43,902 nucleotides of DNA from Planctomycetota bacterium (lineage in GTDB: Bacteria; Planctomycetota; PLA2), in the NCBI GenBank assembly GCA_027297745.1, contig JAPUHK010000112.1, forward strand, positions 1 to 43,902, written 5' to 3'. Shown here in pieces: positions 2,193 to 9,607 of this stretch (positions are counted from its first letter, which is position 1; every line of letters begins with the position of its first letter). The notes beneath the pieces were generated by a model, which worked only from the letters and a program-made list of their open reading frames with translations, ran no database searches and was not told the DNA's origin. The position numbers were made by a program, and so were the translations under genes.

Positions 2193-3161
2193 GTGAAGGA
2201 ACGGCCGGACGCTCCCGCTTCCCGGCAGCTGTACCGGCTCGCGCTGCTCACGGCCGCCGTCACGTTCCCGCTGCTCTGTCTCGGCGGGCTCGTGACCAGC
2301 CTCGACGCGGGTCTGGTGTTTCCGGATTGGCCGCTCAGTGCCGGCAGCCTGAACCCGAGCGGGTGGACCGCAAACCTCGATCAGGCGGCGGAGCACGGCC
2401 ACCGGCTGCTCGGCGCGCTGGTGGGGCTGTGCGCGCTGGCGCTGCTCGTGACGGCCTTGCGTCGCCGCGCGCCGCGTGCGGTGCGCCGGCTGGCCTGGAT
2501 CGTGTTCGCGGCCGTCTCGCTGCAGGGCCTGCTCGGCGGTCTGCGCGTCACCGAGCAGTCCACGCAACTGGCGCTGTGGCACGGCTGCTTCGCGCAGGTC
2601 GTTTTCTGCCTGATGGTCGCCACGGTCTGGCTGACCTCCCGCGATGGGCCTTCGCCCTCCGGGCTACGGCCTTCGGGCTCCGGGCCAAGGCGCACAAGCC
2701 CCAAGCAGCAGAACGATGCCAGACCGCTCTTCGCGGCGTCCGTCGCCGTCGTGCTGCTCGTGTTCCTGCAACTGATCCTTGGCGCGCAACTGCGCCACGT
2801 GGGCGGCCCGGCCTACTCCCACATCCTGGGGGCCGTGATCACGCTCGGCGCGGTGGGCTGGGCGCTGTTCCTCGCGCTGCGCAGGCACGGTCCGGATGCG
2901 CCCGTCGTAGAGGCGGCCACGTCGCTGGCGGGGCTCTTCCTGCTGCAGGTCTTCCTGGGCCTGATCGTCTTTTCCACGCTCGGCACCGGCGCGGGCGATC
3001 CACACACCACGGCGCGGGTCGTGCTGCCGACGCTGCACCTCGCGCTCGGCGCGCTGATCCTGGCGCGCGCGCTGTTGCTGGCGTTGCACGCCGGACGGCG
3101 CGTCTGGGAACAGCGGCCCGTCGCGCCCATGAGCCCCATGAACACGGAGACCGCGTCGTGA
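2193..3161 (+). CDS. ctaA: haem A synthase (CtaA/COX15 family)
   Basis: Integral membrane enzyme that oxidises the haem O methyl group to make haem A for the oxidase encoded upstream. The 322-residue product has about eight membrane segments in two four-helix halves. Conserved haem-ligand type histidines are visible in EHGHR, LALWHGCF, YSHILGA and LPTLHLALGA. The GTG start lies 10 bases after coxA stops. The linker between the halves (about residues 150-176) is unusual: low-complexity Gly/Pro/Ser/Arg encoded by a GC-rich palindromic repeat (2646-2686). The frame is intact through the insertion, so the enzyme is probably functional. The end overlaps the ctaB GTG by four bases. Confidence 0.92.
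   Translation: MKERPDAPASRQLYRLALLTAAVTFPLLCLGGLVTSLDAGLVFPDWPLSAGSLNPSGWTANLDQAAEHGHRLLGALVGLCALALLVTALRRRAPRAVRRLAWIVFAAVSLQGLLGGLRVTEQSTQLALWHGCFAQVVFCLMVATVWLTSRDGPSPSGLRPSGSGPRRTSPKQQNDARPLFAASVAVVLLVFLQLILGAQLRHVGGPAYSHILGAVITLGAVGWALFLALRRHGPDAPVVEAATSLAGLFLLQVFLGLIVFSTLGTGAGDPHTTARVVLPTLHLALGALILARALLLALHAGRRVWEQRPVAPMSPMNTETAS
2646..2686. repeat. GC-rich palindromic repeat inserted in the ctaA coding frame
   Basis: The segment consists of imperfect copies of CCTTCGGGC and GCCCTCCGGGC-like words, each self-complementary, beginning and ending with GGGCC. It encodes Gly/Pro/Ser/Arg-rich linker residues between the two halves of haem A synthase. It looks like a repetitive element tolerated in a loop. 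Only one copy is in the window, so its family status is inferred. Confidence 0.45.
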
Positions 3162-4075
3162 GACACGTGGTGGACGCGGTCGCCGTAGCGCCCGGCCGGC
3201 GGGCCTGGTCTACGTCCTGGGTGGACTTCGTCGAGCTGACCAAGCCGCGCCTGACCGCGCTCGTGGTCGTGGTGGCCGTCGCCGGGGCCTGGATCGCCGC
3301 TCCCGGAGCGGTGCACCTCGCCTTGCTGTTGCACCTCGCCGCCGGTATCGGGCTGGTCGTCGGCGGGGCGAACGCGCTCAACATGGTCATCGAGCGCGAC
3401 CTCGACGCGCGCATGGAGCGCACGCGCAACCGACCGCTGCCCGCGGGTAGGATCGGGGCCGCCGGCGCGGCGTGCTTCGGCATCGCCGCCGCGGCTGTGG
3501 GCGCTGCGTGGCTCGTCTGGGCCACGACGCCGGCCGCGGCCGTGGTGGCCGTGACCTCCTTCGCGCTCTACGTCTGTGTGTACACGCCGCTGAAGCGCAC
3601 TACGACGCTGAACACGCAGGTCGGCGCAATCTCCGGAGCGCTGCCGGCGGTGATCGGCTGGGCTGCCGTGCGCGGCACCGTCGAGGTCCATGGGTGGTTG
3701 CTGTTCGCCATCCTCTACCTGTGGCAGATCCCGCACTTCCTGGCCATCGCCTGGATGTACCGCGAGGACTACCGGCGCGGCGGGTTCTGCATGCTGCCGC
3801 GCATGGACGCCTCGGGCGCGGCCACCGCGCGCCAGGCCGTGGTCGCCGCCCTGGTGCTGCTGCCGGTGAGCCTCGTACCCACTTCGGCCGGCCTGGCCGG
3901 GCCGTTGTACTTCGTGGCGGCGGCTGCGCTCGGCGCCTTCTACCTGCATGCCGCGCTGCGCTTTTGGCGCGCCTCGGAGCAGCGTGACGCTGCCGCGCGC
4001 AGCCTGATGCGCGTCTCGCTCTTCTACTTGCCGCTCCTGCTCCTCTTCCTGCTGGCGGACGCGGGGTCGCTGTAG
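3158..4075 (+). CDS. ctaB: protohaem IX farnesyltransferase (haem O synthase)
   Basis: UbiA-family membrane prenyltransferase that adds a farnesyl group to protohaem, giving haem O, the substrate of CtaA. The product is 305 residues from the GTG at 3158, which overlaps the ctaA stop as GTGA. The first aspartate-rich motif is seen in the segment NMVIERDLDARMER followed by TRNRPLP, and the second conserved region in YTPLKRTTTLNTQVG. The segment LWQIPHFLAIAW is typical of CtaB/CyoE. There are about eight or nine membrane helices. The order coxB-coxA-ctaA-ctaB makes one oxidase assembly operon. The start is chosen because upstream in-frame sequence lies wholly inside ctaA. Confidence 0.95.
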   Translation: MRHVVDAVAVAPGRRAWSTSWVDFVELTKPRLTALVVVVAVAGAWIAAPGAVHLALLLHLAAGIGLVVGGANALNMVIERDLDARMERTRNRPLPAGRIGAAGAACFGIAAAAVGAAWLVWATTPAAAVVAVTSFALYVCVYTPLKRTTTLNTQVGAISGALPAVIGWAAVRGTVEVHGWLLFAILYLWQIPHFLAIAWMYREDYRRGGFCMLPRMDASGAATARQAVVAALVLLPVSLVPTSAGLAGPLYFVAAAALGAFYLHAALRFWRASEQRDAAARSLMRVSLFYLPLLLLFLLADAGSL

Positions 4076-4084
4076 GGGGGCGCT

Positions 4085-4624
4085 GTGGTCGAGCACCAGA
4101 CGTCGGATGCCGCCGGGGGCGAGCGGCTGCGGTTCGGCGTCGACCTGCTGCTGTTCGTCCTGTCGCTCTTCTTCCTGGGCCTGGTGTACATGTATTGGCA
4201 CCTGCGCGCGGGCGCCGAGCGCATCGTGCTGCGCGACGAGGCCTCGGCCAACCTGGCGCTCGTGTGCAGCGTGTTCGCCGCGCTCGCGGCCTGGCTGGCG
4301 GTCGGCTTCAATTGGCTGGGCCGTACCCGCACGTGGCCGGCCGCTCACGCCTTGTCGTGCACGGTGACGGGCCTCGGCCTGCTCTTGACGATGGTCGCGT
4401 TGCACGCGTGGGTGGGCGCCGGGTACACGGCAGGGGCCGGCCGCGCATCGTTCGCGCTGCTGGTGCTCGGTGCCGCTCAGGCCCTGGCGCTGTGCGTTGC
4501 CTGGATGTGGATGGCGGTGGTGCTGCACCGCCCTGCGAACGGGGTCGCGGCCGGGTTGGCCGGCCGCCTGCTCGTCCTCGTAGCCGTCGTAGCGAGCATC
4601 GTCGCGTTGTTGCCGGGGCCATGA
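4085..4624 (+). CDS. short membrane protein, possible cytochrome c oxidase subunit III-like
   Basis: A 179-residue protein with about five hydrophobic helices, starting at GTG 4085 ten bases after ctaB and overlapping the ABC ATPase by ATGA. Position and helix pattern suggest a truncated or diverged subunit III (usual length 190-270 residues), for example the segment LLLFVLSLFFLGLVYMYW near the N-terminus. No decisive family motif can be read, and the conserved Glu/His pattern of subunit III is not evident. It could instead be an unrelated small oxidase-associated membrane protein. Co-transcription with the haem A genes and the exporter is clear. Confidence 0.5.
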   Translation: MVEHQTSDAAGGERLRFGVDLLLFVLSLFFLGLVYMYWHLRAGAERIVLRDEASANLALVCSVFAALAAWLAVGFNWLGRTRTWPAAHALSCTVTGLGLLLTMVALHAWVGAGYTAGAGRASFALLVLGAAQALALCVAWMWMAVVLHRPANGVAAGLAGRLLVLVAVVASIVALLPGP

Positions 4625-5559
4625 GCGCGATCGTCACGCGAGGGCTCCGTTGCACGTACGGCGAGCGCAGGGCGCTCGACGATCTGAGCCTCACGGTCGA
4701 AGCGCAGGAGATCGTCGGCCTGTTGGGTCCCAACGGAAGCGGCAAGACCACGCTCTTCCGCGTGCTGACCACGCTGCTCGCGCCCACCGCGGGCTCGGCG
4801 AGCGTGCTCGGGCACGACACTGTGGCGGAGCCGATGGCCGTGCGGCGCGCGATCGGAGTCGTCTTCCAGGCCCCGAGCCTCGACCGCAAGCTGACCGTCG
4901 CCGAGAACCTGCTGTACCAGGGTCGCCTGTACGGCCTGCGCGGCCGCGCGCTGCGCGCCCGCGTCCAGGAGTTGCCCGGCGAGGTGGGGCTCCAAGACCG
5001 CGCCGGCGAGCGCACGGAGAAGCTCAGCGGCGGGCTGAAGCGCCGCGTGGAGCTGGCCAAGGGTCTCCTGCACCGGCCCCAGGTGCTGCTGCTCGACGAG
5101 CCCAGCGGGGCGCTCGATCCCGGCGCGCGCCGCGACCTGTGGCGCTACCTGCAGCGCGTGCGCGAGGAGTCCGGGGTCACGCCTTTCGTCACTACGCACC
5201 TCATGGAAGAAGCGGAGCGTTGCGACCGCATCGCCATCCTGGACCGCGGGCGGCTGGTGGCCTTCGACACGCCGGATGCGCTCAAGAGCCGCATCGGCGG
5301 CGAGGTCCTGCGCATCACGCCCACAGACCCGGACGGCAGCAGGGGCTTGTGCGCGGCCATCGCCGAGCGCTTCGACGTGCAGCCCACAGACATCGCCGGC
5401 GAGGTGCGCCTGGAGCGGCACGACGGCGCCGCCTTCCTGCCCGCACTGTTCGAAGCCTTCCCGGGCCGCATCGCCGCCGCGACGGTCGCGCGGCCGAGCC
5501 TCGAGGACGTCTTCATCGGACTCACGGGGCACCGCTTCCGGGAGGGGGCGGAAGGATGA
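4621..5559 (+). CDS. ABC transporter ATP-binding protein (DrrA/NodI/CcmA-like)
   Basis: Cytoplasmic ATPase of an ABC-2 type exporter, 312 residues. Walker A GPNGSGKTT, Q-loop VFQAPSLDRKLT, signature LSGGLKRRVE, Walker B VLLLDEPSGALD and the switch His in VTTHLMEEAE are all intact. The C-terminal part after about residue 220 is the extra domain common in DrrA-like ATPases and ends with the typical SLEDVFIGLTG. The ATG overlaps the preceding stop, and the TGA overlaps the permease ATG. The substrate cannot be read from sequence. Location in an oxidase assembly operon suggests export of a cofactor, metal-related ligand or assembly factor, which is inference. Confidence 0.93.
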   Translation: MSAIVTRGLRCTYGERRALDDLSLTVEAQEIVGLLGPNGSGKTTLFRVLTTLLAPTAGSASVLGHDTVAEPMAVRRAIGVVFQAPSLDRKLTVAENLLYQGRLYGLRGRALRARVQELPGEVGLQDRAGERTEKLSGGLKRRVELAKGLLHRPQVLLLDEPSGALDPGARRDLWRYLQRVREESGVTPFVTTHLMEEAERCDRIAILDRGRLVAFDTPDALKSRIGGEVLRITPTDPDGSRGLCAAIAERFDVQPTDIAGEVRLERHDGAAFLPALFEAFPGRIAAATVARPSLEDVFIGLTGHRFREGAEG

Positions 5560-6329
5560 CGGCCGCCCTCACGTTGGCGCAGCGCGAGCTCGTGCGCTTC
5601 TTCCGGCAGCCGAACCGCATCGTCGGCGCCATCGGGCAGCCGGTCCTGTTCTGGTTCCTGTTCGGCGCCGCTTTCAAGGACAGCCTGCGCCCGCCCGGCG
5701 TCGAGCAGGACTACGCGCAGTTCTTCGCGCCCGGCGTGGCGGCCATGATCGTGCTCTTCACCGCCATCTTCAGCACGATCTCGATCATCGAGGACCGCCG
5801 CGAGGGGTTCTTGCAGGCCGTGCTCGTGGCGCCGGTGCCGCGCAGCGCGATCGTGCTGGGCAAGCTGCTCGGCGGAACGCTGCTCGCGATGCTGCAGGCA
5901 CTGTTCTTCCTCACGCTCGTCTTCGCCACCGGCAAGGTCCCCTTCGGTTGGGAGGTCGTGGGGCCGTCGCTGCTGATCTTGTTCCTGATGGGCCTCGCGC
6001 TGACGGGGCTCGGGTTCTGCATCGCCTGGCGCATGGACTCGACGCAGGGCTTTCACGCCATCATGAGCGTCTTCTTGCTGCCCATGTGGCTGTTGAGCGG
6101 GTCGGTCTTTCCCGTCGAGGGCGCCGCGACGTGGCTGGTCTGGGTGATGCGGCTCAATCCGCTCACCTACGGTGTCGAGGCCTTGCGGCGGGCCTTGTGG
6201 CTGCACGGCGCACCGGGCGATCCTGCCGTCTTGTGGGGCTACACCGCGATCACGCTGCTGTTTGCGCTCGCGATGTTCGCCGGCGCTACTTGGATCGCCC
6301 GCAAGCGTCAGACGGTAGACCTGCAATAG
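5556..6329 (+). CDS. ABC-2 type transporter permease
   Basis: Inner-membrane partner of the ATPase just upstream (ATGA overlap), 257 residues with six predicted membrane helices, as usual for half-size ABC-2 permeases of the NodJ/DrrB kind. Features include the amphipathic N-terminus LAQRELVRFFRQP, the cytosolic coupling region IIEDRREGFLQAVLVAPV and the conserved late segment VMRLNPLTYGVEALRRAL. One ATPase plus one permease gives a homodimeric exporter. It is the last gene before a spacer with a palindromic repeat pair, so the first transcription unit probably ends here. Confidence 0.92.
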   Translation: MTAALTLAQRELVRFFRQPNRIVGAIGQPVLFWFLFGAAFKDSLRPPGVEQDYAQFFAPGVAAMIVLFTAIFSTISIIEDRREGFLQAVLVAPVPRSAIVLGKLLGGTLLAMLQALFFLTLVFATGKVPFGWEVVGPSLLILFLMGLALTGLGFCIAWRMDSTQGFHAIMSVFLLPMWLLSGSVFPVEGAATWLVWVMRLNPLTYGVEALRRALWLHGAPGDPAVLWGYTAITLLFALAMFAGATWIARKRQTVDLQ

Positions 6330-6463: not shown

Positions 6464-6496
6464 AGCAGCCTGGACCAAAGCCGTAGGATGGGACCC

Positions 6497-7099
6497 ATGA
6501 GGAGGCTTTGCATTGTGCTCGCGGCGGCGCTCTCTGCCTGCGGCGAGAAGCAGGACGAGCAGGCGATTCGAGTCCACGGCCAGAGCGAGCCGCCCGCCGG
6601 CAAGAACCTGCCGGTGGTGGTGCAAGTGCCCGAGTTCAGCTTCACCGAGCGCAACGGCAAGCAGATGGGCCCGAAGGAGCTGCTCGGCAAGGTCTGGGTG
6701 GCCGACTTCATCTTCACCAACTGCCCCGGCCCCTGCCCGCTCATGACACTTCAGATGCACCGCATCCAGGAGCGTTTCAAGAGCAGCGACGATCTCAGGC
6801 TGGTGAGCATCACGGTCGACCCTGAGCGCGACACGCTCCCCGTGCTGAAGGAGTACGCGAGGAAGTACCAGGCCGACCCGCACAAGTGGTTCTTCTTGCG
6901 CGGCCCGCGGAAAGAAGCGCACGAGTTGGCCTTCAAGGGCTTCAAGCAGGGCAGCAAGGCCGACCCGCTCAACGACCACAGCATCCGCTTCGCGCTGGTC
7001 GATCGCCTGGGCCGCATCCGCAACTACTACGACGGCACGGACGAGAAGTCGATGGAGCGCCTGTTCAGCGATCTCGAGGCCCTGCTGAGCACCTCGTGA
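6497..7099 (+). CDS. SCO1/SenC/PrrC family copper chaperone, lipoprotein
   Basis: Thioredoxin-fold protein that delivers copper to, or reduces the cysteines of, the CuA site of oxidase subunit II. About 200 residues. The copper/redox motif is NCPGPCPLM (CxxxC) and the conserved distal ligand His is in NDHSIRF; TVDPERDT is also typical. The N-terminus MRRLCIVLAAALSAC carries a lipobox, so the protein is probably anchored on the periplasmic face. The second ATG (6497) is preferred because it gives a compact signal peptide and an AGGA lies at 6485-6488; the first ATG (6488) would abut that AGGA. Overlaps the next gene by GTGA. Confidence 0.93.
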   Translation: MRRLCIVLAAALSACGEKQDEQAIRVHGQSEPPAGKNLPVVVQVPEFSFTERNGKQMGPKELLGKVWVADFIFTNCPGPCPLMTLQMHRIQERFKSSDDLRLVSITVDPERDTLPVLKEYARKYQADPHKWFFLRGPRKEAHELAFKGFKQGSKADPLNDHSIRFALVDRLGRIRNYYDGTDEKSMERLFSDLEALLSTS

Positions 7100-7512
7100 T
7101 CGAACAGCTTCCCACCCTGAACGCCGCGCTCAACGCGCTCAGCGCATCCCTGCTCGTGCTCGGCTGGGCCGCCATCCGCAAGGGCAAGGCGCGGCGCCAC
7201 CGCAACCTGATGCTGGGGGCGCTCGGCTGCTCCGTCCTGTTCCTGGTGTCGTACGTGACCTATCACATCGCGAAGCTGCACACGCCGTTCCAGGGCGAGG
7301 GTTGGGTCCGGCCGGTGTACTTCGTCATCCTGATCACGCACGTGGTGCTGGCGGTGGCCATCGTGCCGCTGGTGATCCTGACCGTCGTGCGCGCGGCCCG
7401 GGGGCGCTTCGAGCGCCACCGCCGGATCGCCCGCTGGACCCTGCCGCTCTGGCTCTACGTGAACGTCACCGGCGTGGTGGTCTACTTCATGCTCTACCAG
7501 TGGGTCGCATAG
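7096..7512 (+). CDS. DUF420 family membrane protein
   Basis: A 138-residue protein with about four membrane helices that matches the DUF420 (YozB/CtaM-like) pattern, a family commonly found beside cytochrome oxidase and SCO genes. Visible features are the early helix LSASLLVLGW, a basic loop GKARRHRN, the His-containing helix LITHVVLAVAIVPLV and the arginine-rich loop RGRFERHRRIARW before the last helix. Its role is believed to be oxidase assembly or haem/copper handling, but no reaction is established. The GTG start overlaps the SCO stop as GTGA. A palindromic repeat starts two bases after its stop. Confidence 0.85.
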   Translation: MIEQLPTLNAALNALSASLLVLGWAAIRKGKARRHRNLMLGALGCSVLFLVSYVTYHIAKLHTPFQGEGWVRPVYFVILITHVVLAVAIVPLVILTVVRAARGRFERHRRIARWTLPLWLYVNVTGVVVYFMLYQWVA

Positions 7513-7633
7513 CCTGTAGGGGCGGCCCTATGTGGCCGCCCTGCCGTTCGCGGTCCGGTTGGGTCAGGCCCCGGGTTGCGGGCGCATCAGGACAACGCAC
7601 GTGAGGGGCGGCCACATAGGGCCGCCCCTACAA
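7513..7633. repeat. REP-like inverted palindrome pair, copy 2
   Basis: Unit C has stem GGGCGGCC (7520-7527) / GGCCGCCC (7534-7541) around CTATGT. Unit D is the inverted copy (7606-7613 / 7620-7627) around ACATAG. Loop centres are 86 nt apart, as in copy 1. The linker shares CCCCGGGT and CAGGAC with copy 1, so the whole block of about 120 bp looks like one composite element that spread as a unit. Confidence 0.82.
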
Positions 7634-7685: not shown

Positions 7686-7919
7686 ATGAGGTTCGCCGCT
7701 TGGGCCGCGCTGATTCTCCTGCTCGCGTTGCCGTCCACGGCATTCGGGTGACCGATGTGCAAGGAGGCGGTCGCCTCCCAGGCTCCGGAAGACGCAGCGC
7801 GGATCTCGCAGGCCTTCGAATACGGGATCCTCGCGATGATGGGTTTGCCCTTCGTCCTGTTGGGCGTGGTGGGTGGTTTGCTCTACCGCGGGTACCGCAA
7901 GCAGCGCGCCCCCGAGTAG
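7686..7919 (+). CDS. candidate selenoprotein: signal peptide, UPMC redox motif, one membrane helix
   Basis: One 77-codon frame runs from ATG 7686 to TAG 7917-7919 and is interrupted only by TGA at 7749-7751 (codon 22). Before it comes a perfect signal peptide (21 residues ending LPSTAFG). After it comes PMCKEAVAS, an acidic-polar stretch, a helix of about 18 residues (GILAMMGLPFVLLGVVGG) and a basic tail YRGYRKQRAPE. The TGA sits where a CPMC motif would have its first Cys, so reading it as selenocysteine gives UPMC, a standard UxxC redox pair. A SECIS-type hairpin follows at 7763-7778. The later ATG at 7755 has no ribosome site and would leave a fragment without a signal peptide. I recall short secreted CPxC proteins of this build near oxidase genes, but no function is established. 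The alternative is a nonsense mutation or a sequencing error of TGC. Not verified: presence of selA, selB, selC and selD. Confidence 0.68.
7763..7778 (+). promoter_or_regulatory. putative bacterial SECIS hairpin for UGA decoding
   Basis: A perfect stem GGAGGC (7763-7768) / GCCTCC (7773-7778) closes the tetraloop GGTC (7769-7772). The loop starts 17 nt after the TGA at 7749-7751. Known bacterial SECIS elements have a short apical loop with a G in its first two positions about 16-37 nt past the UGA. The E. coli fdhF element, as I recall it, shows GGUC at nearly the same distance. The UGA is followed by C, as in fdhF. No bulged U in the stem is seen. Confidence 0.65.
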
Positions 7920-7961: not shown

Positions 7962-8813
7962 ATGCGCAAGATGATTCCGGCGCTGGGCCTGATCGGCCTG
8001 GCCGCCTGGTTGTGCAGCCCCGGCGGGGAAGCAAGCCCGGTCTACGCGGTGCCGCGCTACAAGGGCGGCGAAGTGGCGGGCGGCGGCTCGATCAAGGGCA
8101 CCGTGACGATCAGCCCCGTCCCGCAGCCGGCCGACTTCACGGTCGAGAAGGACGTCAAGACCTGCCGCGGGACGCAGGAGAAGAAGGCCAACTTCCGGCT
8201 CAGCGCAAATTCGGACACGGGCGCCTGGGCCGACGTCGTGGTCTACATCGACGGCATCAACAAGGGCAAGGCGCTGCCGAAGGGCCAGAAGTTCACGATC
8301 GACCAGAAGGAGTGCACGTACAGGCCCTTCATCACGATCGCGCCCAAGAAGTCCTCGGTGGAGATCACCTCGTCCGATCCGATCCTGCACAACGTGCACG
8401 TCTACGAGGGCACGCCCCAGCAGCCGCACTCGCTCACCCGCGACGTCTTGAACCAGGCGATGACGAGCTCCGCGGTGCCTGCCACGCCGCTCGAGCGGCG
8501 CGACCTGCGCAGGCCCGCCTTTTACTACATCCGCTGCGACGCGGGACACATCTGGATGTCGGCCTACATCTGGGTCGTGGAGCATCCCTACTACGCGAAG
8601 ACCGACGCGAAGGGGCAGTTCGAGCTCACGGACGTGCCGCCGGGCACCTACACGCTGCGCTTCTGGCATCCGGGCTACGAGATCGAGCCCGTCCTCACCG
8701 ACGGCAAGGTGACCGAATACAACTTCGGCGCACCCATCGAGCACCGCATGACGGTGACGGTCGAGGCGGGCAAGGCGACGAGCGCGAACTGGCAGGCGAC
8801 GGGGGCGAAGTAG
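7962..8813 (+). CDS. secreted cupredoxin-like / CarboxypepD_reg-like protein
   Basis: A 283-residue exported protein with a signal peptide ending near GGEAS and a strong ribosome site AAAGGAGG. The middle has a cupredoxin-like beta-sandwich signature: a His in ILHNVHVYEG and, downstream, C-x3-H-x2-M in CDAGHIWMSAY, which resembles the Cys-His-Met ligand order of type I copper sites. The end (about residues 205-245) is a carboxypeptidase regulatory-like module: TDAKGQFELTDVPPGTYTLR. The next gene encodes a related protein. Probable role: periplasmic copper or electron carrier near the oxidase, which is inference from ligands and context. An unmetallated structural protein is possible. Confidence 0.68.
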   Translation: MRKMIPALGLIGLAAWLCSPGGEASPVYAVPRYKGGEVAGGGSIKGTVTISPVPQPADFTVEKDVKTCRGTQEKKANFRLSANSDTGAWADVVVYIDGINKGKALPKGQKFTIDQKECTYRPFITIAPKKSSVEITSSDPILHNVHVYEGTPQQPHSLTRDVLNQAMTSSAVPATPLERRDLRRPAFYYIRCDAGHIWMSAYIWVVEHPYYAKTDAKGQFELTDVPPGTYTLRFWHPGYEIEPVLTDGKVTEYNFGAPIEHRMTVTVEAGKATSANWQATGAK

Positions 8814-8815
8814 CC

Positions 8816-9607
8816 GTGAAGTACACGCTGCGGGCCGTGCTGCTGCTGTGCGCCGCCGGTTGCGGCGCGCAAAGCGACGGAGCCGCGGCTGCAACGGCCC
8901 GTGACACGATCTACGGGGAGGGCCCCTCCGCCGCGCTGCGCAAGCGCGACTGGGACCCGGGGCTGGCGACGGCGGCGGTCCGCGGGCGGGTGCGCCTGCT
9001 CGGAACCGCGCCGCCGCGCCGCAAGGAACCCTTGGGAAACTGCAAGTTCTGCCGTGACGCGCACCCGGACGGGCTTTACACGGAAAACGTGCTGGTCGGC
9101 CCGGCCGGGGGCCTGAAAAACGTCTTCGTGTGGGTGAAGCAAGGCCTCGAGGGTTGGCGCTTCCCCGTCCCCAAGGAGCCCGCCGTCCTCGACCAGGTCG
9201 CGTGCCGCTACGTGCCGCGCGTCCTGGGGCTCCAGACGGGGCAGGCGCTCCGCATCCTCAACAGCGATGCGACCACGCACAACGTTCACGCGCTGCCCGT
9301 GGTGAACGAGGGCTTCAACCAGAGCATGACGCGCAAGGGCGGCGTGCTGTCCGCGTGCTTCCGTGACCCCGAGGTGTGGATCCCGCTCCAGTGCCAGATC
9401 CACGGTTACATGAGCGCCTACATCGGCGTCGTGCCGCATCCCTTCTTCGCAGTCACGGAGGCCGACGGGAGCTTCGTGCTTCCCAAGCTGCCGTCCGGCA
9501 AGTACACGATCGAGATCGTGCACGAGTTCTACGGCCGCAAGACGCACGAGCTGGAAGTGAAGGACGGGGAGCAGCGCAGGCTCGAGCTTGCCTTCGGCAC
9601 GGAGTGA
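8816..9607 (+). CDS. lipoprotein with cupredoxin-like and CarboxypepD_reg-like regions
   Basis: 263 residues from GTG 8816, two bases after the preceding gene. The lipobox is LLLCAAGC. It shares the layout of its neighbour: an N-terminal Cys block NCKFCRDAHPDG, a His segment TTHNVHALPV, a ligand-like block C-x2-H-x2-M in CQIHGYMSAYIG, then a beta module TEADGSFVLPKLPSGKYTIE. The Cys-His-Met spacing is nearer to classical plastocyanin-like sites than in the upstream paralogue. The pair probably arose by duplication. Likely an outer- or inner-membrane-anchored copper/electron-transfer protein; the actual ligand set is inferred. Confidence 0.66.
   Translation: MKYTLRAVLLLCAAGCGAQSDGAAAATARDTIYGEGPSAALRKRDWDPGLATAAVRGRVRLLGTAPPRRKEPLGNCKFCRDAHPDGLYTENVLVGPAGGLKNVFVWVKQGLEGWRFPVPKEPAVLDQVACRYVPRVLGLQTGQALRILNSDATTHNVHALPVVNEGFNQSMTRKGGVLSACFRDPEVWIPLQCQIHGYMSAYIGVVPHPFFAVTEADGSFVLPKLPSGKYTIEIVHEFYGRKTHELEVKDGEQRRLELAFGTE

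Follow-up and report, generated by a model that had tools for sequence, protein, structure and literature searches.

The small gene at 7686-7919 of the window, the whole stretch of 43,902 nucleotides from a Planctomycetota bacterium analysed here, was found, with hardly any room for doubt, to encode a selenoprotein of an unnamed family. The best explanation as a whole, favoured on balance, was considered to be a selenoprotein that would supply the SCO-CtaM branch of haem-copper oxidase maturation with a tethered selenol/thiol pair. The computed basis consists of the selenocysteine (Sec) coding, the selection on the SECIS-type hairpin, the exchange of Cys and Sec on both sides of the motif and the linkage to SCO and CtaM.

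Reading frame and homologue family

The gene was found on the forward strand with an ATG start and a TAG stop (7917-7919), encoding 77 amino acids with Sec at residue 22. As the preliminary description had stated, the sole inner stop of the 77-codon frame was the TGA at 7749-7751, which occupies position 1 of a CPMC-type motif and is read as selenocysteine from the frame and the homologue motifs, and no indel was needed anywhere across the frame. With the TGA read as U, the protein was found to be MRFAAWAALILLLALPSTAFG-U-PMC-KEAVASQ...YRKQRAPE. The putative signal peptide (7686-7748), recognised by eye and not by a dedicated predictor, ends in an A-F-G cleavage-like site and is immediately followed by the UPMC motif (7749-7760). 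The PMC residues were followed by about 20 further residues, a single hydrophobic stretch taken by eye as one membrane helix (approximately 7824-7886) and retained in the family alignment, a basic tail (7887-7916) and the TAG codon, all on the same strand. No promoter or terminator pattern was found near the gene.

Searching 59 genomes with the single sequence yielded matches in 16, one of which (L026 in G022, with a TAA inside) was discarded as unrelated and was absent from the later profile search. The other genomes of the sample with the family code of the window (G001-G004) were found to contain TGA at the identical codon. A profile of 17 sequences (A1) was run over 392 sampled Planctomycetota genomes at E <= 0.001 and matched 115 places in 109 genomes, from which 109 genes of 106 genomes were classed. 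Two matches without the motif (L168, L169) were left out, and four others (L165, L167, L170, L171) were placed outside the 109 in a sister set with Cys-Sec or Sec-Sec. The TAA or TAG codons within profile matches (the window's genome G000, G150, G301 and one of G089) were the ends of the genes themselves. A separate contig scan for the small Sec protein gave two loci.

The 109 homologues were found to contain UxxC (33), CxxU (14) or CxxC (62) motifs, the TGA of the CxxU genes (CAMU, CVMU, CPMU, CPGU and others) being at the second motif position, so Sec can occupy either side of the two-residue motif. The UxxC genes were spread over 11 family codes and the CxxU genes over six different ones. 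The best tree, which was poorly resolved, contained 13 changes between Sec and Cys, two of them forced by supported branches. With Sec counted as Cys, no column of the 109-row alignment was invariant apart from the two end positions of the motif. Motif position 3 was occupied by Met in CPMC (23), CAMC (4), CSMC (3), CAMU (4) and CVMU (4) members; among the 33 UxxC members, 31 had Asn, Ser or Gly there and one had Met. All 33 UxxC proteins contained a small residue at -1 and a small or aliphatic residue at -3, immediately before the motif. The motif stood immediately after the cleavage-like site in 33/33 UxxC, 55/62 CxxC and 1/14 CxxU proteins, and within three residues of it in 13 of the 14 CxxU proteins, mostly with Gln between. 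In five of the 109 genes (L072, L091, L137, L161, L166) the expected range contained no start codon, and two of these (L161, L166) apparently have no signal peptide and start just 5' of the motif, as would fit an N-out insertion.

Homologues with Cys at this codon, whose absence the preliminary description had named as a refutation, were present, with CxxC in 62 genes. The TGA in the frame was judged to exceed chance, given these 62 homologues and the TGA at the identical codon in G001-G004. A base error is very unlikely, since that TGA recurs in G001-G004 and 47 genomes contain a TGA at the motif. In 23 close pairs of Sec-type relatives (at least 55% identity without gaps, with members shared between pairs), dN 3' of the motif fell below dS in all but one, where the two were equal.

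SECIS-type hairpin and selenocysteine machinery

The bacterial SECIS model comprises a loop of 3-9 nt with G in the first two loop positions, a stem of 4-16 bp, a spacing of 16-37 nt and an MFE of <= -7.5 kcal/mol (PMC13188914). The window was found to contain, on the forward strand at 7763-7778, the stem half GGAGGC (7763-7768), the loop GGUC (7769-7772) and the stem half GCCUCC (7773-7778), a hairpin of 6 bp with a 4-nt loop, 17 nt from UGA to loop and -11.4 kcal/mol, which lies within every term of the model. None of 200 shuffles was as stable as the 22-nt hairpin. The fold of the whole 42 nt was unremarkable (z -1.41, with 25/200 shuffles as stable).

Across the family, a lax hairpin scan was non-specific, matching 33/33 UxxC and 14/14 CxxU but also 42/62 CxxC genes. 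A strict test was defined by a stem of at least 5 pairs, G in the first two loop positions and a loop 16-21 nt past the TGA or first Cys codon, and was passed by 26/33 UxxC, 8/14 CxxU and 3/62 CxxC genes (codon shuffles 12%, 11% and 6%, respectively), so that 7/33 UxxC and 6/14 CxxU genes failed it. The UGA of the CxxU genes stands 9 nt further into the motif, and the distance of the hairpin to the UGA was found to be kept (loop at +18 to +21).

Since the stem overlaps the KEAVAS codons, a control was run on the UxxC and CxxC sets with the amino acids held fixed and synonymous codons redrawn from the same genes in 500 draws. All six pairs were present in 22 of the 33 UxxC genes against a null mean of 2.8 and a maximum of 9 in the 500 draws, and none of the 62 Cys genes was fully paired (null 0.0). 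The Val codon of the loop was GTC in 29/29 cases vs 64/168 elsewhere. These results point to RNA-level selection for the hairpin at synonymous sites in the UxxC genes, and a SECIS-type hairpin, which the preliminary description proposed to look for, is present in the window, within the model terms and selected across the UxxC set.

The same results bear on the reading of the TGA as an ordinary stop, which would leave a 21-residue leader peptide, a broken gene or a base error. This reading was rejected and is given almost no weight, on account of the identical TGA that all five genomes of the family code share, the TGA at the motif in 47 genomes, the Cys homologues, the coding constraint (dN < dS) 3' of the TGA and the hairpin selected at synonymous sites.

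The genome holding the window (G000; 3.69 Mb in 312 contigs, 94% complete) was found to contain tRNA-Sec (67.2 bits vs a cut-off of 47) and SelB (319 bits, curated cut-off 242), SelA (510 bits) and SelD (362 bits), each above its curated cut-off, with selD, selA and selB together on one contig (C106). The selA, selB, selD and tRNA-Sec named in the preliminary description are thus all present. The selD gene (L173:4762-5688, reverse strand) contained one in-frame TGA in the string SSAGG-U-AAK, which is a UxxK site as listed for Sec-containing SelD in a 2026 review, so the SelD of this genome is likely itself a selenoprotein, judging from its sequence. From the machinery and the TGA in selD, decoding of UGA as Sec is expected in this genome independently of the small gene. 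A changed genetic code, in which TGA would stand for another amino acid, was likewise rejected as having a negligible chance, since TGA serves as a stop in the neighbouring SCO gene of the same cluster and in several homologues, and the full Sec machinery is present.

SelB was called present at E < 1e-70, a stand-in for the 242-bit cut-off (about 5e-72 by estimate) with no compared genome between the two, and was over the cut-off in 234/392 genomes. It was found in 41/47 Sec-type and 24/59 Cys-only genomes, and among genomes at least 90% complete in 29/29 Sec-type vs 17/49 Cys-only ones (Fisher p 1.1e-9, relatedness not removed). Few supported independent pairs were available on the tree for this comparison. 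The six Sec-type genomes without SelB were 55-89% complete, and tRNA-Sec was over the cut-off in four of them, leaving G004 and G301 with neither over the cut-off. Among the 14 genomes given to the tRNA-Sec scan, none of the six Cys-only genomes of family code f25 contained tRNA-Sec over the cut-off.

Oxidase assembly genes and the proposed role

The window was found to contain, all on the forward strand, the end of coxB (subunit II; 1-396; Pfam COX2) with the CuA-type string CAEYCGVGH read from the sequence, followed by coxA (subunit I; 404-2182; an ORF named by eye, not Pfam-scanned, and the source of the coxA probe), ctaA (COX15; 2193-3161; PF02628) and ctaB (UbiA family; 3113-4075, start approximate; PF01040). 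A membrane ORF without a Pfam match at E 0.001 (4085-4624) stood in the place of a subunit III gene, followed by an ABC ATPase and an ABC-2 permease (4618-6329, forward strand, starts approximate; named by Pfam). SCO1-SenC (6488-7099, forward strand; PF02630, 83.3 bits) contained a CxxxC motif (NCPGPCP) and a TGA stop, overlapped by the probable GTG start of DUF420/CtaM (7096-7512, forward strand; PF04238, 160.9 bits for the scanned 7099-7509). Downstream of the Sec gene, two secreted carboxypeptidase-regulatory-like proteins (7962-9607, forward strand; PF13620, the second below the cut-off) were present. The preliminary description had placed the Sec gene between SCO/DUF420 and cupredoxin-like genes. 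SCO1-SenC and DUF420 were confirmed by Pfam; the cupredoxin-like label is to be qualified, as Pfam gave only carboxypeptidase-regulatory-like or similar sandwich domains for the downstream genes and the cupredoxin-type CxxxHxxM and CxxHxxM strings were seen by eye. Genes of this downstream type were near only 6/109 homologues. The genome was also found to contain a DsbD-type protein and no match to COX11 (PF04442).

Between DUF420 and the Sec gene, a perfect 27-bp inverted repeat was observed at 7515-7541 and 7606-7632, its halves 64 nt apart. The repeat looks dispersed, since its end TGTAGGGGCGGCC recurs in 40 exact copies in the genome (69 with one mismatch vs 30 for a reversed control).

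Neighbour probes made as profiles from the window genes were run over flanks of about 4 kb in most loci, shorter where the contig ended first. Near the 109 homologues, DUF420 (74), SCO (70), ABC permease (40), ABC ATPase (38), ctaB (37), ctaA (25) and coxA (24) were found, with at least one probe at 87/109. DUF420 was on the same strand with its frame centre within 1.1 kb in 68 loci, and in 28/109 loci (L071, L080, L110, L112 and 24 others) the SCO and DUF420 probes matched one open frame; SCO-DUF420 fusions are noted for planctomycetes in the available part of PMC13344008. None of the probes was found at 22/109 homologues, for only some of which contig ends account, and eight of the 14 CxxU genes had no neighbour probe, including all five of family code f66. 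Over the 339 genomes searched, DUF420 was present in 82/88 genomes with the family (the 88 including G288 of the sister set) vs 52/251 without it (p 5e-35, relatedness not removed).

As a side observation, the f66 CxxU genes (L142, L146, L149, L153, L159) keep the protein and the UGA with no oxidase genes nearby, and two of them (L142, L153) lie beside a transporter-like ORF and a very long ORF, both named by eye.

For the claim of a selenium-based step in oxidase maturation, the gene order and the DUF420 co-occurrence make a strong link to oxidase assembly for the family at large, one that does not extend to every member, given the eight of 14 CxxU genes without such neighbours. Work of the small Sec/Cys protein in oxidase maturation is accordingly a confident but qualified prediction from gene context, and less so for the CxxU genes. 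The selenoprotein could instead have no part in assembly, being a structural or accessory subunit similar to the membrane segment at the N-terminus of subunit II, or a general guard against peroxide or stress. This is considered unlikely. Its distribution tracks DUF420, no oxidase gene is near the eight CxxU genes, and TIGR01432 (QOXA, quinol oxidase subunit II) picks up 15/109 members along one hydrophobic stretch at E <= 0.1 (best 3.7e-5); these scores are far under the cut-off (23 vs 241 bits), the match spans one helix as many single-helix proteins could give, and only the two Cys/Sec columns of the alignment are invariant.

In the mechanism proposed for the assembly role, UGA codon 22 would be read as Sec by SelA, SelB, SelD and tRNA-Sec, directed by the hairpin with its loop 17 nt downstream. 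As the motif stands immediately after or near the cleavage-like site, the mature protein should begin with or near the Sec/Cys pair on the outside; we infer the topology, the mature N-terminus and the redox step as follows. Secretion and cleavage would give a mature N-terminus of Sec-Pro-Met-Cys outside the membrane, anchored by one helix with the basic tail inside, and the protein would most likely be a small membrane-tethered selenol/thiol pair of the SCO-CtaM branch. The pair would maintain the CxxxC of SCO, the subunit II CuA cysteines or both in the reduced state so that copper can load, or alternatively, within the same scheme, would reduce copper to Cu(I) for loading.

A tethered reductant of SCO/CuA makes the simplest reading, with a Cu(I) relay as its main rival, and the chance that the protein is a reductant rather than a copper carrier or a structural part is put at about even. 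The position of the motif, at the very N-terminus and outside any fold, counts against the reductant, being unusual among disulphide reductases. In bacteria that have TlpA, Sco and subunit II are reduced by it, and those lacking it presumably rely on some other factor (PMC9145763). Oxidase activity depends on CtaM, for which export of copper to Sco has been proposed, and the need for a local cupric reductase has been discussed (PMC13344008). The rival, in which the selenolate/thiolate pair would be a Cu(I) ligand passing copper from CtaM or the membrane surface to SCO or subunit II, is possible though distinctly doubtful. The Met that many CxxC and CxxU members carry at motif position 3 would suit such a ligand, as would the adjoining SCO and CtaM genes, given the copper export for Sco proposed for CtaM (PMC13344008, available part), the known Sec-bearing metal-binding families (MerT, CopZ-like; 2026 review) and weak Pfam MerE matches of 2/109 members (best E 0.0042); the UxxC members argue against it with Asn, Ser or Gly at position 3 in 31/33 and Met in one, as does the lack of a strong metal-binding Pfam match among the best 25 of 48 families.

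Three weak matches and one odd one from profile A1 led to relatives with adjacent Sec-Sec or Cys-Sec, and a search with these four sequences also recovered the window gene (E 5e-7), while its other matches supplied five additional sister members; two further matches of that search (L213, L214) contained no motif and were discarded. The nine sister members, all in genomes other than that of the window, were found to contain UU from adjacent TGA-TGA in six (L167, L170, L171, L208, L209, L212) and CU from Cys-TGA in three (L165, L210, L211), with one helix each; the UU genes include L171:3890-4165, L170:3938-4177 (reverse strand) and L167:3974-4174 (reverse strand), and the CU genes L165:1860-2123 (reverse strand). 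Six of the nine lie behind coxB and coxA on the same strand and one (L170) behind ctaA, ctaB and ABC genes, and none of the ten neighbour probes was found at L167 and L211. Five (L165, L167, L170, L171, L212) contained a stem of at least 5 pairs with a G-bearing loop 18-23 nt past the last UGA. The other four contained such a hairpin only at 34-36 nt, three of them with an additional stem at 11-14 nt, a shorter distance than the SECIS model permits. Of those folded, L171 was best (z -4.9), followed by two others (-1.4 and -1.5).

A wider picture, offered tentatively and at somewhat below even odds, would be a selenium-dependent route of oxidase building in Planctomycetota, in which an outer-face Sec/Cys pair (UxxC or CxxU) would serve the SCO-CtaM copper branch and, with the Sec-Sec/Cys-Sec sister, would make up a selenolate copper/redox relay unlike the described assembly factors.

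Comparison with known systems

The family was absent, compared by name and motif, from Table 1 of PMC13188914 and Table 1 of PMC9312934. The former, with 119 families and subfamilies judged by names, domain ids and motifs, contained no small secreted single-helix oxidase-assembly protein, and no NCBIfam model of its families fitted among the matches listed. No such family was present in the accessible part of the deep-Sep paper (PMC12013277). The window protein had no Pfam match at E 0.1, and no match near the cut-off was among those listed for NCBIfam release 20, its sole match there being NF041047, a listed (seleno)protein family (E 0.051, 13.7 bits vs a cut-off of 110). For the 109 members, no fitting Pfam or NCBIfam model was among the best 25 of 48 families. 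Planctomycete selenoproteins are reported in PMC4807772, and an earlier mention is possible in its supplementary list. No account tying selenium to cytochrome oxidase assembly was found in the open PMC literature searched by titles and abstract starts. The remark that no described system of this kind was known agrees with the two catalogues, the Pfam and NCBIfam matches listed and this open PMC literature.

The available text of PMC9145763 and PMC13344008 leaves open the job of CtaM and the agent that reduces Sco or copper where TlpA is lacking, and a conserved Cys/Sec peptide beside SCO-CtaM is a concrete candidate for the missing reductant or relay. Because Sec is found at both motif positions with the distance between hairpin and UGA kept, the family is a natural experiment on the replacement of Cys by Sec. 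Ordinary gene callers stop at UGA, so the Sec forms are probably overlooked in annotation.

The gene resembles the SelB-dependent bacterial selenoproteins with an in-gene SECIS (PMC13188914), which likewise have UGA as Sec, a hairpin 16-37 nt on, a loop-start G, Cys homologues and the machinery. The UxxC selenoproteins of the thioredoxin, glutaredoxin and Dsb types share the UPxC/CPxC spacing typical of redox pairs; the window protein, with about 55 residues after the signal peptide, is too short for their fold, and no thioredoxin-fold match was found for it or among the best 25 of 48 families for the 109 members. TlpA of Bradyrhizobium and mitochondrial COA6 are like the proposed job in keeping the SCO and CuA cysteines reduced. 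TlpA differs in being thioredoxin-like and COA6 is a soluble twin-Cys protein, and both were set apart by their absence from the family-scan matches, not by direct comparison. COX11, or Cox11-type CtaG, is a single-helix periplasmic copper factor in oxidase assembly, sharing the single helix but absent among the Pfam matches listed for the family. CtaM (DUF420) and CtaK of Bacillus belong by gene linkage to the same pathway, CtaM being the direct neighbour of the Sec gene, and both are unlike the small Sec protein, CtaM having four or five helices and CtaK being a lipoprotein (PMC9145763 and PMC13344008, in their available parts).
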